Assembly (NCBI GenBank): GCA_003697085.1
Contig: RFFU01000023.1
Location: 1 to 20,640, forward strand
Source: Candidatus Hydrogenedentota bacterium
GTDB lineage: Bacteria; UBA8481; J006
Length of the DNA: 20,640 nucleotides
Reading direction: 5' to 3'
Positions 3,415 to 16,385 of the stretch are shown here, piece after piece. The notes below the pieces were generated by a model. It worked only from the letters and a program-made list of their open reading frames with translations, searched no databases and was not told the DNA's origin. Position 1 is the stretch's first letter. The number at the start of each line of letters is the position of its first letter. The position numbers and the translations under genes are program-made.

Positions 3415-4485
3415 TCACGCCGTCGCCGAAGCGATGACGGAATCAAGAACTTTTCTTCCCCAACCCTCCGCGAGAATTCTTCCCGCCTCTTCGAAGGCCC
3501 GGTCCCAATCCCAACCACACGCTGCCACAAGACCCGCGGCGGTGTTGAACCGAACGATGGCTTCCCCAGCCCTGTCCTCGCCTTTCCCGCTCAAGATATT
3601 TCGGATCCGTTCTGCCGATTCCTCCGCCGAGCCGACCCTCAAGGCGGAAACGGGGAAGGACCGCACACCGAACCTCCCGGGCTCCAACTCTTCCTCGAAA
3701 CGCTCCCCGCCACGGAACCGTATAATTCTCGTCGGGCCGGAAATCGATATCTCGTCCATCGCTTCGCCCGTCTCACTTCGGCCGCTGGCGCAGACCGCTC
3801 CCCGAACACCGAGCCTTTCCAGCACCTCGGCCATAACCGAAAGCTTCCTCTCGACGAAAACACCCATCACCTGCCACGCAGCCCGCGCGGGATTGGCCAG
3901 CGGCCCGATCAGATTGAAGGCCGTGCGCCGGCCTTGCGCCGCCAAACGCTTCCTCACGGGCATCACAAAGGCGAAGGCCTTGTGGAAACGCGGAGCGAAG
4001 AGAAATCCGAACCCGTTCGTCCGAACCGAAGACGCCACCTGCTCCGGACTTCCTTCGACCGGAACGCCGAGCCTCTCGAGGACATCGGCGGAGCCGGAAG
4101 TCGAAGCAATCGCGCGATTGCCATGTTTGGCAACCGCCAGCGAAGAGCACTCCCCCCCAAGGAACCGTGCACCGGCGAGACAGAACGCCGCCGCCGTCGA
4201 AACATTGAAGGTGGAAACCCCACCTCCCGTTCCACAGGTGTCGATCAGATTTTCGGAACTCACGCCCGGAAGGGAAATCGCACGCTCTCTCACGACCCCC
4301 GCCAGGCCCGCCAGAGTCGCGGCATCGACATCTTCGAAAGACAACGCCGGAGTCAAAAGAAATCGCTCGATGGCCCCCTCGCCACAGCCGCCGTCCGCCA
4401 AAATCTCCATCGCCGCCGCGGCCTCCTCCTCGGTTAAATTCCGTTCCTCGGCCGTGACGATCAGTTCCTCAAAACGCTCGGTCAT
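3415..4485 (-). CDS. trpD: anthranilate phosphoribosyltransferase
   Basis: TrpD transfers the phosphoribosyl group from PRPP to anthranilate, the second step of tryptophan synthesis. The 356-residue protein has a helical N-terminal domain, then the PRPP-binding glycine loop DTCGTGGG (82-89), TFNVSTAAAF, KHGNRAIASTSGSADVLERLG (from residue 120) and FNLIGPLANPA, all in the family order. Length is normal. Two local oddities: the glycine loop reads GTGGGVSTFN rather than the commoner GTGGDGxxTFN, and about eight extra residues (around RFLGGECSS, 107-115) precede the KHGNR motif. The reading frame is clean through both. I chose ATG 4485 because the purine-rich site GGGAAAGG fits it; another ATG 6 nt upstream abuts that site. 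No other trp gene is nearby. The gene begins 43 nt after tRNA-Thr. Confidence 0.92.
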   Translation of the reverse strand: MTERFEELIVTAEERNLTEEEAAAAMEILADGGCGEGAIERFLLTPALSFEDVDAATLAGLAGVVRERAISLPGVSSENLIDTCGTGGGVSTFNVSTAAAFCLAGARFLGGECSSLAVAKHGNRAIASTSGSADVLERLGVPVEGSPEQVASSVRTNGFGFLFAPRFHKAFAFVMPVRKRLAAQGRRTAFNLIGPLANPARAAWQVMGVFVERKLSVMAEVLERLGVRGAVCASGRSETGEAMDEISISGPTRIIRFRGGERFEEELEPGRFGVRSFPVSALRVGSAEESAERIRNILSGKGEDRAGEAIVRFNTAAGLVAACGWDWDRAFEEAGRILAEGWGRKVLDSVIASATA

Positions 4486-4528
4486 CCTCATCCTTTCCCG
4501 CGGGGCTTCTCTTGATAAACCCGGTACA

Positions 4529-4601
4529 AGCCGATGGTGGGGTTCGAACCCACGACCTACCGCTTACAAGGCGGTTGCTCTAGCCGCTGAGCTACATCGG
4601 C
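4529..4601 (-). tRNA. tRNA-Thr (anticodon UGU)
   Basis: The reverse complement of 4529-4601 folds as a 73-nt cloverleaf. It has a perfect 7-bp acceptor stem (GCCGATG/CATCGGC), a D stem GCTC/GAGC with loop AGCGGCTA, an anticodon stem ACCGC/GCGGT with loop CTTGTAA (anticodon TGT, threonine), a 5-nt variable loop, and a T stem GTGGG/CCCAC with loop TTCGAAC. The discriminator base is T. The CCA end is not encoded, so it must be added by a nucleotidyltransferase. Confidence 0.97.
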
Positions 4602-4611
4602 GAACCATTCC

Positions 4612-4640
4612 ATTCTACGGCCGAGCAACCGCGACGGCAA
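4612..4640 (-). promoter_or_regulatory. sigma70-type promoter of tRNA-Thr
   Basis: On the minus strand a -35 box TTGCCG (4635-4640) and a -10 box TAGAAT (4612-4617) are separated by exactly 17 bp and lie 10 nt before the mature tRNA 5' end. The promoter ends just before repeat copy A (from 4659), so that repeat has landed immediately upstream of it. No hairpin with a T-run is seen between the tRNA and trpD, so the transcript may continue into trpD. Confidence 0.6.
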
Positions 4641-4658
4641 GACCGCCGAACCAACGGA

Positions 4659-4895
4659 AAAGGTGTCATTCTTACATTTTGTCATTTTGATGTTCAAATG
4701 ATGATGCCTCCACGATTCTTCGAGGCCTATGCTGGAAGCGGTTCTCTAAGGCTTCCTTTCCCCCCTGATATTGCAGGACTTTTGAGGCCGTACCGGTGTA
4801 CCGGTACTTATGGAACCGCTTCAGGAGGCCTTTCCGGCGCGCTTCGGCCGATGGAGGGGCCGGAGTCTTGGGCGAAAGAGACAGGCGCTGCGCGC
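4659..4895. repeat. interspersed repeat, copy A
   Basis: Bases 4659-4733 align without gaps to 5935-6009 with about seven mismatches, beginning AAAGGTGTCATTCTTACATT. A second block, 4831-4895, matches 6018-6081, including the shared core GATGGAGGGGCCGGAGT and then ACAGGCGCTGCGCGC. Between the blocks, copy A has about 97 nt where copy B has about 8. Both copies have the same orientation. The family is not identified by name; the structure fits a short non-autonomous mobile repeat or insertion-sequence remnant. It supplies the first ~65 codons of the open frame that continues into the RHS fragment. Confidence 0.8.
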
Positions 4896-5936
4896 GGTCT
4901 CCCGTTCTTGCCAAATTTCTCTATCTCCCTCGTGTCTCGGTGGTTCCTCCCTGGGTCGCTTGCGTCGTTTTCGGCTCAGAACGGCTCCGGCGTGATCACC
5001 GTGCCGGGGCGGCCGGTGGCGTGGACGGACGCGAACGGGAACGTGACGCGGTTCGAGTACGACGCGTGGGGGCGGCAGGTCGCGGAGGTCTATCCGGACG
5101 GGAGCCCGGAGGAGACGCGATACGACGCTGCGGGGAGGGTGATCGAGGCGATCGACCGAGCGGGGCGGAGCATCACGTTCCGCTACGATCCCGGCGGGAG
5201 GTTGATCGAGCGGAAGGGGCCCGGGATCGGGACCGAGTCGTACGAATACGACGCGGCGAACCGGTTGGTGCGGGTGGTGGATGCACGCGGGAGGCACGAG
5301 TTCACGTACGACGCGGTGGGGCGGGTCGTGCGGGCGCGTCAGCCGAACGGGTTCGTGGTGGGGTATGCGTACGACGCGGCGGGGAATCGAACGAGGCTGG
5401 AATATCCGGGGGGAAGGGTGATAGAATACGGGTATGATGCGAGGAACCGGGTGGTGAGGATCGTGGACGGAACGGACGAGTATTCGTTCGGGTATGACGC
5501 GGCGTCGAGGCGGACGCGGTTGGAATTCCCCAACGGGTTTGCGGCGAAATATTCGTACGACGCGGCGAATCGCTTGACGGGGCTTGTTTACGAGAACGTC
5601 CGTGGCGGCGGCGGTGGAGCGGGCGGCGGCGGCGGTGGCCGTGGAGCGGGTGCGGGCGGTGTTGGCGTTGGTGCCGGCGGCGGAACGGAATCGCTTGGGT
5701 ACACGTACGACGCCGTGGGGAACATTCTCACACGCGAAGACGTGGCGGGGACGCACCGGTACGGGTACGACGCGGCGTATCAGATCACGTCCGCGGATTA
5801 TCCCGCGCGTTATGCTTACGCGGACCAGACCTTCGTGTACGATCCGGCGGGGAACCGGACGGCGTTCACGGAGGGTCCAGCGACGACGGCGTACACGGTG
5901 AACGAATTGAACCAGTACACCCGCGTCGATGTGTAA
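4698..5936 (+). pseudogene. RHS/YD-repeat protein fragment
   Basis: This plus-strand frame encodes 412 residues. From about residue 105 (base 5010) it is a string of YD repeats of the RHS type, for example FEYDAWGRQVAEVYPDG, YEYDAANRLVRVVDARG and FTYDAVGRVVRARQPNG. Full RHS proteins are usually 1000 or more residues, with an N-terminal export region and a conserved C-terminal core before a variable tip. Here both are missing. The apparent N-terminus (MMMPPRFFEAYAG) is encoded by repeat copy A, and the frame stops after NELNQYTRVDV, where copy B begins; copy B supplies the stop codon. Residues ~300-326 are a Gly-rich insert between YD repeats. It is best read as a dead internal RHS piece. Translation from 4698 is possible but unsupported, with no export signal. 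Confidence 0.8.
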
Positions 5937-6081
5937 AGGTGTCATTCTTGCATTTTGTCAATTTGATGTTCAAATGATTATACCTCCTCGATTCTTCGGG
6001 GCCCATGCCAGCAGGACTTTCCGTTGCGAATCGGCTGATGGAGGGGCCGGAGTTTCCGCCGAGGAAACAGGCGCTGCGCGC
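5935..6081. repeat. interspersed repeat, copy B
   Basis: This is a direct copy of the repeat at 4659-4895, about 90% identical over its first 75 nt and more diverged afterwards. It abuts the truncated 3' end of the RHS fragment. It is the compact form, without the ~97-nt internal segment of copy A. A minus-strand frame runs through both copies (residues TPAPPSA shared) but has no other sign of being a gene. Confidence 0.8.
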
Positions 6082-6583
6082 ATTGGCGGGTCGGGGCGCC
6101 CGTCCCCTCCATTTGCGAGGTATTGCGCACATTCGATGTCCTCCCGAATCCCTCGCTTCCGCTCGGGACAGGCTCCGTGAGGAATCCCCTTCACGAGGCA
6201 TCCCGTGGAGGGGGCCAATACTCCCCCCTTACCCCAACCCTCCCTGCCTGCGCCGCGATGCGTCGCGGCAGGCAGGTCCCCAGAGGGGCGAGGGAGAACG
6301 AGGCGGTTGTCAGCAATCTCGGGGGATTGCTCGTCGGCGTCGCTCCGCGCCGCCTCGCTCGGAATCACAGCAGTGGTGGAGACAGAGCCTCAGTGTGAAA
6401 AGGTGAAACGCCGTGCGGGAGGAATGAAGAACGCCGGAAAGCAAAGCCGGGCGCGGCGGATCGGAAACTTCGGTCGGGCTCCCGATGGGGACACCGGGGA
6501 ATTCTTTCTCCTTTCCCTTTCTTCGGTCACCGTACCCTCTGTTGTTTTTTGAGACACGTATTCGCCCCCTCCCCGATCGAGGG
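6082..6583. other. gene-free repeat-rich spacer
   Basis: About 500 nt between repeat copy B and the 3' end of the ptsP-like gene. It holds a strong REP-like hairpin at 6243-6276. I find no open frame with a recognisable protein, no tRNA and no convincing terminator. The frames that cross it on either strand have compositions typical of spurious translation of repeats. Confidence 0.6.
6243..6276. repeat. REP-like palindromic hairpin
   Basis: The left arm 6243-6258 (CCTGCCTGCGCCGCGA) pairs with the right arm 6263-6276 (TCGCGGCAGGCAGG) through 14 bp, with a 2-nt bulge and a TGCG loop. There is no T-run next to it, so it is not a typical intrinsic terminator. The outer CCTGCC/GGCAGG arms recur in the hairpin at 16549-16566, which suggests a dispersed extragenic palindrome family. 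Confidence 0.65.
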
Positions 6584-8848
6584 TCACTCGAAAACGAGCG
6601 GAGCGTACTGGCGAAGAATATTTCGGATAAGGCGTTCTGTCTTCCGCGAGGTATCGGCCTGAAGCAACGGTGTTCGCAACAGCGCCACGACCTTTGAGGG
6701 AAGATGGTTGACCAGATACCGCACGGTCCATATGCGCGACGGAGAAACGCTGAATTTGCGATACCCGATAGCCAGCAGCGCCGTGCACGAGACCGGGTCG
6801 CCGGCGATCTCCCCGCAGATCGAAAACCTCTTCCCGAGCCCGGCCAGGGAGCGGAAGAGATGGGCAAGCGCTCGGAGAAAGGCGGGATGAAACGGGTTAG
6901 CGAGTGCCGTAATCCGTGCGATACTCCGATCAGCCGCCATCAGGTACTGCGCAAGATCGTTCGTTCCGATGCTGACGAAGTCCGCCTCCCGCGCCAACTC
7001 CTCGACCTGAAAAAGCGCGGCGGGAACCTCGATCATCATCCCCAGCGGATACTCAGCTCCTTCCGTAACCTTCATCATCTCTTCCCGCACGGCTTCCAGT
7101 TCCCAGGGATGTGTCACCATGGGAACGAGAATCCGCGGCCGACATCGGGTTCTCTTCGCCGCTTCATGGATCGCGCGTATCTGGCTCCGGAGAATCTCCG
7201 GGCGATCCAAGAGAAGGCGCACGGACCGCAGCCCCAGCGCTCCATATTCCTCCTCCTCGCCGATCAAGGATGCCACCTTTTTGTCTCCGCCGACGTCCAG
7301 GAGCCGGACGGTGACGGGGCCGGGACAGAACTTCCCGAATAGTTCCTCGTAAAAGCGAATATGTACCTCGTCGTTCGGCCACGTGGAATGCTGCATATAG
7401 AAGAACTCCGTTCGCAAAAGCCCGACGGATCTCAACCCTTCCCCCAACGCCGCCTCCGCCTCGACCGGAAGGCCGATATTGACGTCGAGAGCCACCTGGC
7501 TTCCCAGAAGACTCTTCCCCTCCGAAGCCGCCTCGCGGATCCGCTCCCGGCGTTGCTGAATCTCGGACCGGCGTTCTTCGTAGGCGGAAATTTCGTCGCG
7601 GGCGGGATTGAGGATCACCGTCCCGCGATCACCGTCGACGAGCACGGAGTCTTCCGGCTTCAGGTGTTCGACGATTCCGGACACGCCGACGACGGCGGGC
7701 AGTCTCAGGGCCCGCGCCAGGATCGCGGCATGGGAATAGTCCCCCCCCGTCTCCGTTACGATCGCCACAACCTTCGCGGTATCGAGCCGGACGGTTTCCT
7801 GCGGCGTCAAATCCCGCGCCACCACGACCATGTTCTCCTCCTCGAATTCCGGAGCGAAATGGGTGATCTTCTTGTCCATCATCAGTTCAAGGAGTTGATC
7901 ACGGAGCCCTTTGAGATCCTGCGCCTTTTCCCGGAGAAGCGGATTATCGAGGCGCGAGAAACGATCAATGAATTGATTCATTACCTCGGCGACCGCGCGA
8001 GGAGCGCTTTCCTTTTTATTCTGAATCAATTCCAAAACACGACCGCGGAATTCCTCGTCCTGAAGGATGAGTTCATGCGCCAAAAAGATCTTTCCCGCGG
8101 ACTCGGAATTTTTCTCGATCTGTTCCCGCAGTCCGCGGACCTCCGCAATCGCGGCATCAAGCGTCTTTTGGAAGAGATCGGTTTCGAATTCGACCCCTCG
8201 AAACCCCCGCGCCGCCACCACGATCCGTTCCGGTGACGAGGTGAAGACGTGGACGCGGGCCGCGGCGATTCCGGAAGAGACACCTTGCCCGAGAAAGACG
8301 CGTCTTCCCGCCCCGTGCAGGGTCCGGAGAGAAAGTGCCACATCCACCGCTTGTCCCAGTTGGCCGGCGATGACCTGGAGAAATTGTCGATCCGTCGTTG
8401 TGAAATCGTACGGTTCCCGCGTCTGAACGGTCAGAACACCCGTGACTTTGCCGCGATGCACCATTGGAACCGCAGCCATCGAGGCCATTTCCTCTTCCTT
8501 GGTCTCGGGAAAATATCGATAACGCGGATCCTCGGCCGCCACCTTGACGAAGATCGGTTCCTCCATCTCCGCAGCCGCTCCGACGAGTCCCTCGCTCAGC
8601 GGCAACACGACCTTGCCCACCGCCGCTGGATCGAGCCCATGCGTGGCCGCCAAAACCAGCGTTTGCTTCTCCCGGTCCAGAATGTACATTGAACAGACAT
8701 CCCACTGCAGCGCTCCGGCGATCAACTCCACGAGGCGCGTCAAGCGCTCCCCCGGTGTCAGACCCTGAACGGCTTCCCTCGTGATCTGGTCCAGAACCTC
8801 CAGATAATGGCGTTCCGGTAGGTCGGGCCTCTCCTTCACCGTTTCCAC
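6584..8848 (-). CDS. ptsP: GAF-domain PTS enzyme I (phosphoenolpyruvate-protein phosphotransferase, PtsP type)
   Basis: The 754-residue protein has a GAF domain (about 20-170), the enzyme I N-terminal helical region (about 185-320), the phosphohistidine domain with GGDYSHAAILAR (His373 phosphorylated) and a PEP-binding TIM barrel. The barrel shows LLRTEF (Arg479), RLLDVGGDK, IGTNDLAQYLMAADR and CGEIAGDP (Cys678). This is the architecture of enzyme I(Ntr), which takes phosphate from PEP to NPr/EIIA(Ntr) in the regulatory nitrogen PTS; the GAF domain senses a small molecule such as glutamine in characterised homologues. The catalytic set is complete. The GTG start at 8848 has GGGAGGAA about 5 nt upstream. 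No HPr/NPr or EIIA gene is nearby, so its partners are elsewhere. It lies 147 nt downstream of the FecR-domain gene. Confidence 0.93.
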   Translation of the reverse strand: METVKERPDLPERHYLEVLDQITREAVQGLTPGERLTRLVELIAGALQWDVCSMYILDREKQTLVLAATHGLDPAAVGKVVLPLSEGLVGAAAEMEEPIFVKVAAEDPRYRYFPETKEEEMASMAAVPMVHRGKVTGVLTVQTREPYDFTTTDRQFLQVIAGQLGQAVDVALSLRTLHGAGRRVFLGQGVSSGIAAARVHVFTSSPERIVVAARGFRGVEFETDLFQKTLDAAIAEVRGLREQIEKNSESAGKIFLAHELILQDEEFRGRVLELIQNKKESAPRAVAEVMNQFIDRFSRLDNPLLREKAQDLKGLRDQLLELMMDKKITHFAPEFEEENMVVVARDLTPQETVRLDTAKVVAIVTETGGDYSHAAILARALRLPAVVGVSGIVEHLKPEDSVLVDGDRGTVILNPARDEISAYEERRSEIQQRRERIREAASEGKSLLGSQVALDVNIGLPVEAEAALGEGLRSVGLLRTEFFYMQHSTWPNDEVHIRFYEELFGKFCPGPVTVRLLDVGGDKKVASLIGEEEEYGALGLRSVRLLLDRPEILRSQIRAIHEAAKRTRCRPRILVPMVTHPWELEAVREEMMKVTEGAEYPLGMMIEVPAALFQVEELAREADFVSIGTNDLAQYLMAADRSIARITALANPFHPAFLRALAHLFRSLAGLGKRFSICGEIAGDPVSCTALLAIGYRKFSVSPSRIWTVRYLVNHLPSKVVALLRTPLLQADTSRKTERLIRNILRQYAPLVFE

Positions 8849-16352: not shown

Positions 16353-16385
16353 AAAAAGGGTGTCATTCTTACAGTTTGACAGTTT
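16353..16385. repeat. diverged copy of the interspersed repeat end
   Basis: The sequence GGTGTCATTCTTACA followed by a GTTTGACAGTTT tail matches the left ends of the repeats at 4659 and 5935 (shared word GGTGTCATTCTT, then TTTTGTCATTT there). After about 30 nt the similarity stops. It has the same orientation as copies A and B. Confidence 0.55.

Follow-up and report, generated by a model that had tools for sequence, protein, structure and literature searches.

With moderate confidence, we interpret the repeat on either side of an RHS gene fragment in the window (the whole stretch of DNA analysed, 20,640 nucleotides, contig C53 of genome G000) as the terminal repeat (TIR) of an approximately 1.07-kb TIRYT element, and the RHS piece as a scrap of cargo in a cassette-like segment with TIRs at its borders, whose formation or movement we ascribe to the TIRYT, to recombination, or to both. 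TIRYT, or TIRtron, stands for TIR-associated tyrosine transposase (Di Nocera et al. 2013, PMC3733652). The RHS piece is read as cassette-like cargo because the TIR-bordered architecture elsewhere borders toxin-antitoxin (TA) pairs. Seen alone, the window holds a gene scrap between two repeats, and the weight of the interpretation rests on recurrence elsewhere. Genome G000 comprises 3.2 Mb in 145 contigs and is about 95% complete.

Table 1. Features of the RHS locus in the window, and the direct TIR pairs of genome G000 with the content of their intervals.
Feature	Position	Strand	Remarks
tRNA-Thr (TGT anticodon)	4529-4601	-	confirmed by RNA-family search
TIR copy 1 core	4659-4688	+	AAAGGTGTCATTCTTACATTTTGTCATTTT
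Unit 1 tail, part 1	4689-4732	+	89% to 5965-6008
Nominal ORF, 412 aa	4698-5936	+	starts inside unit 1; TAA overlaps TIR copy 2
Nested palindromic module, about 85 nt	4734-4822		complementary ends GAAGCGGTTC...GAACCGCTTC; second dispersed repeat family
Unit 1 tail, part 2	4823-4895	+	81% to 6009-6081
Junction stretch, unit 1 tail to RHS homology	4896-5006	+	best RHS alignment begins at 5007
RHS/YD-repeat fragment, both ends truncated	5007-5930	+	profile match and alignment
TIR copy 2 core	5935-5964	+	
Unit 2 tail	5965-6081	+	homologous to C124 TIR-unit tails
Dispersed repeat (third family), tens of copies	6134-6250		adjoins unit 2
Third TIR copy of the window, solo	16356-16385	+	
Direct pair, C53			RHS fragment
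Direct pair, C124			PIN and VapB
Direct pair, C124			HTH and AbiEii
Direct pair, C60			HEPN and HicB/nucleotidyltransferase

The two repeat copies (4659-4732 and 5935-6008) lie on the same strand and are 91% identical over 74 nt, in good agreement with the direct copies of about 90% identity over 75 nt described in an earlier reading made from the sequence alone (the sequence-only reading). Their similarity extends to about 4895 and 6081, respectively, with 4822-4895 matching 6009-6081 at 81%. A nested module, missing from copy 2, interrupts copy 1; this module was found at about ten further places in the genome, and a unit copy on contig C124 holds it too, at another position and in the opposite orientation. 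The tails of the window units could be aligned with those of the C124 units over 130 nt at 72% identity, with an alignment score of 75 as compared to a shuffled maximum of 25.

A genome-wide search with the 27-nt core GGTGTCATTCTTNCANTTTGNCANTTT gave 60 copies, 33 on the plus strand and 27 on the minus strand, while a reversed control pattern gave 0, confirming that the repeat is interspersed. The sequence-only reading had also considered that the repeat might exist only as two copies made by local duplication. A purely local origin of the window units, unrelated to other loci, would be in line with how alike they are, and one copy may be derived from the other, but with 60 cores in the genome and extended tails common to C124 it is hardly credible. 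Most TIR copies are solo and without cargo. Eleven of the 60 directly adjoin the end of an ORF on their own strand that is 150 aa or longer, at its stop codon (0.94 expected); the RHS frame, with its stop at 5935, is one of these cases.

The 5' flank of the TIRs in G000 is A-rich. In three further genomes with the motif, G030, G177 and G312 (L201-L219), this flank frequently consists of a short tandem repeat of the form X-GGG-X-GGG-X directly followed by GGGGTCATTC, with a mean recurrence of 4.1 nt versus 1.07 in shuffles; the pattern was not seen in G000 and may reflect the way in which the TIRs insert. Close pairs of TIRs were also observed. Contig C31 carries two TIRs 46 nt apart (L077, 2028 and 2074), the first right after an apparent tRNA 3' end, and G177:C142 (29-145) has two inward-facing TIRs 90 nt apart, resembling a REPIN pair.

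The general nature of the RHS piece, proposed to lack both core and ends and to lie between the repeats, was supported by its match to PF05593 (E=5.9e-54, seven stretches), by four YD-repeat stretches, and by homology to a long RHS frame of another genome, which runs from 5007 to 5930 and ends within two codons of the stop. The YD repeats amount to only about 308 residues, whereas homologous frames found elsewhere often reach 1000-2000 aa or more, and the fragment does not have the full repeat array, core and variable tip of a functional RHS protein. Being without core and without tip, it is probably a non-functional, inert scrap. Its stop codon is indeed provided by the downstream repeat, the TAA overlapping the start of copy 2 (GTG TAA AGG). 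The start that had been assigned to the upstream repeat stands only in so far as an ATG at 4698 lies inside copy 1; it is just the first ATG of the frame and precedes the RHS homology by about 300 nt. The GC3 of the piece is above that of its neighbours, yet in codon usage it resembles the host as well as the large C124 gene, so that composition is uninformative as to a foreign origin.

Three scenarios had been put forward in the sequence-only reading: two independent repeat insertions into an RHS gene, recombination between repeats, and movement of repeat-RHS-repeat as a unit. The first expects RHS sequence outside both copies. It is disfavoured because none was seen there, the left flank being the tRNA-Thr region and the right flank a dispersed repeat from about 6134. 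A full RHS gene elsewhere in the genome, which the same reading had proposed to look for, did not appear either; the fragment was the sole RHS match in this draft assembly, where others may be missed. A variant of the insertion scenario is that the locus is a relic of an RHS gene struck twice by TIR units, the outer RHS parts having been deleted later. The RHS homology does reach TIR copy 2, as insertion into a gene would leave it, and the host-like codon usage allows a native origin. On the other hand, RHS sequence is absent both outside the units and elsewhere in the assembly, and the scenario requires two further deletions with ends close to the units; we therefore consider a relic unlikely. 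Recombination between the direct copies would remove the interval and not keep it.

The tRNA-Thr gene reported next to the repeats was recovered (Table 1), and TIR copy 1 begins 57 nt upstream of its 5' end. No other RNA family was detected in 4300-6700. With at least three repeat families beside the tRNA gene, the spot is a mosaic. No empty site, excision, junction or circle was seen, in collections without a close relative. In G001, the sole genome of the same order (TrpD 41% identical), the local order around trpD is kept and a flagellar-type gene occupies the tRNA-Thr position; no tRNA was found within 4 kb in the trpD region of that genome.

The TIRs are linked to their transposase by an inward-facing pair on contig C64, with 1.07 kb between the outer ends, which bounds one Y1/IS200-like transposase gene, the sole Y1_Tnp gene detected in this genome. 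The protein matches PF01797 with a score exceeding the gathering threshold (E=4e-7), and also NF047646, the NCBIfam model for REP-associated tyrosine transposases, at E=3.6e-12 although under the curated cut-off of 80 bits. An HUH motif (H57-F58-H59) and Y116, the candidate catalytic tyrosine, are invariant in eight proteins. The transposase, a protein of about 330 aa, has a long C-terminal region, in which an HTH Pfam match was not obtained at E<0.1, and a sequence search returned no solved structure for it. The TIRYT/TIRtron class probably corresponds to TnpA-Y1 subclass 2.1, which has a C-terminal helix-turn-helix extension (PMC6006769).

Among 386 genomes, the motif (at most 2 mismatches) occurred only in G000, G030, G177 and G312. 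The latter three are the sole members of their phylum in the genome set, a phylum different from that of G000, and a search of the family and phylum of G030 for more arrays again gave just these three. The closest transposase homologues reside in the motif-bearing genomes (49-54% identity; next genome 39%). The six closest are all flanked at both ends by inward-facing GG(G/T)GTCATTC with variable 7-mers, in elements of 1.05-1.07 kb, while among more distant homologues those in G133 (38-39% identity) have one TIR end only and that on G030 C36 has none. Two motif variants were searched for on viral contigs, without a match. The linkage between TIR and transposase is thus well supported, and the repeat is the terminal-repeat family of a TIRYT element and not a classical REP. 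In the TIRs of L087 and L203-L208, an internal [7-mer]G[7-mer] duplication was observed whose 7-mer changes between elements, and this 7-mer could be a specificity or guide sequence.

The stretch GGGGWSAS in the TIR is common to some TIRYTs only (PMC3733652), and the present TIR (GGGGTCAT / GGTGTCAT) is a near match to it, with T instead of C/G at the last position; the G000 TIR also has T at the third G. REPs are defined by a GT(A/G)G head and a stable palindrome (Nunvar 2010, PMC2817692). A classical REP of the GTAG family was rejected, as the motif starts with AAAGGTGTC or GGGGTC and has no GT(A/G)G head, and as there is no GC-rich stem-loop palindrome. For most motif variants, folding is no better than that of shuffled sequences; a weak stem is possible in one G000 variant and one G177 variant. 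Ends of IS21, IS256 and IS481, considered at first, were dropped after the motif was found to bound a Y1 transposase.

The spacing of the window repeats is not unique to the RHS locus. Four same-orientation TIR pairs lie 1276-1374 nt apart in G000 versus 0.17 expected, a comparison that assumes uniform placement and a bin chosen after the pairs were seen, which makes its P value optimistic. TA pairs occupy three of the four intervals, and the window provides the only RHS case (Table 1). A direct TIR pair does not always mean a cassette, because a wider direct interval on C133 contains leuS and one on C15 of G312 contains metX. The 62 small ORFs near solo TIRs belong mostly to ordinary or housekeeping families; in the 25 listed out of 51 families, one was TA-like.

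Longer arrays were found in the other phylum, with five same-orientation exact TIRs in G030:C4 and four in G312:C224. The cargo between them consists of HicA-like (a match below the curated cut-off), DUF433 plus DUF5615, DUF2283, nucleotidyltransferase plus HepT, and HicB genes. In both arrays, every TIR is fused to a duplicate of the head gene's 3' end, giving tails of 150-270 bp that are near-identical in some copies. The head genes encode a C-terminal domain with a weak match to CFI-box. Similarly, two units on C124, at 6441 and 3721, have tails that clearly match the large C124 gene at its 3' end; the best match covers 71 nt (score 72, shuffled maximum 28) and lies on the other side of the TIR. 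When the window tails were compared directly with the 3' end of this C124 head gene, the score was at the shuffle limit and not above it. The C124 head gene (L221 11056 to L101 3341) encodes a very large, secreted-looking protein, the last 1112 residues of which gave no Pfam match. Downstream of the G030 array (L201 12006-12720), a TIR copy with 2 mismatches meets the ORF of a truncated group II intron maturase.

These loci could also have arisen passively, with dispersed TIR units, TA genes and scraps gathering in insertion-tolerant spots through recombination or tandem duplication, and without the transposase carrying cargo. Genomic islands often contain TA genes and RHS scraps, and three repeat families pile up at the window spot. 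Furthermore, the array tails, at their length and with some of them near-identical, are long enough for homologous recombination, and leuS and metX are likewise found between direct copies. In contrast, a passive origin does not readily account for TA pairs in three of the four direct intervals of 1.2-1.5 kb when ORFs at solo TIRs are mostly housekeeping, nor for an association between TIRs and TA genes that repeats in two unrelated lineages. Passive gathering is a possibility that we regard as doubtful.

Of the three original scenarios, repeat-RHS-repeat being moved or assembled as a unit fits best, since its spacing and orientation recur with TA pairs at two other G000 loci and since recurring arrays exist in two genomes of another phylum; the movement itself we infer. 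Following the published RAYT/TIRYT model, the transposase would seed solo TIRs. It could also move a TIR together with adjacent DNA by single-strand transfer, thereby forming or moving a segment, and homologous recombination between TIR-tail units might act alternatively or additionally. The segment would have been placed next to an insertion-tolerant tRNA gene, the RHS piece being carried or assembled as its content, as at the TA loci. A stronger version, to which we give little credence, would make the TIRYT an integron-like cassette system in which single-strand transposition of a TIR plus neighbouring DNA, together with a duplicated gene 3' end, captures TA modules and gene fragments like the RHS piece and stacks them in ordered arrays of one orientation.

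RAYT and TIRYT proteins are usually seen as domesticated or self-limited transposases that spread only tiny repeats. If TIRs do border exchangeable cassettes, this would offer a route to TA arrays without integrons, and the benefit of RAYT/TIRYT proteins to the host would become a testable question. Transposases of this class, and the dispersed TIR families that go with them, are already known; in the open-access literature searched, no description of TA arrays bordered by TIRYT or RAYT repeats was found.

Compared with known systems, the element shares with TIRYTs/TIRtrons a single RAYT-related Y1/HUH gene, flanking terminal inverted repeats, a moderately abundant dispersed family, and a TIR resembling GGGGWSAS, here GG(G/T)GTCAT. 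It differs in that its TIRs also occur in direct pairs and arrays that border TA pairs and an RHS fragment, and in having, inside the TIR, a [7-mer]G[7-mer] duplication that differs from one element to the next. As in RAYT/REP/REPIN systems (PMC2817692; Bertels and Rainey 2011, PMC3116915), inverted repeats flank the gene and repeat abundance is tied to the cognate transposase, but the GT(A/G)G head and a conserved GC-rich palindrome are lacking, and direct pairs with cargo are found in place of inverted BIME modules. The layout of small-cargo arrays, often TA, with same-orientation sites in between resembles integron cassettes and CALINs (reviewed in PMC8618304), although the cargo is separated here by transposase TIRs and duplicated gene 3' ends. 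Finally, orphan tips and standalone cassettes of polymorphic toxins (PMC3482391) likewise involve displaced RHS pieces and duplicated gene ends beside toxin genes, whereas neither a C-terminal toxin tip nor an immunity gene was identified for the present fragment, which is bordered by the TIRs of a transposase.
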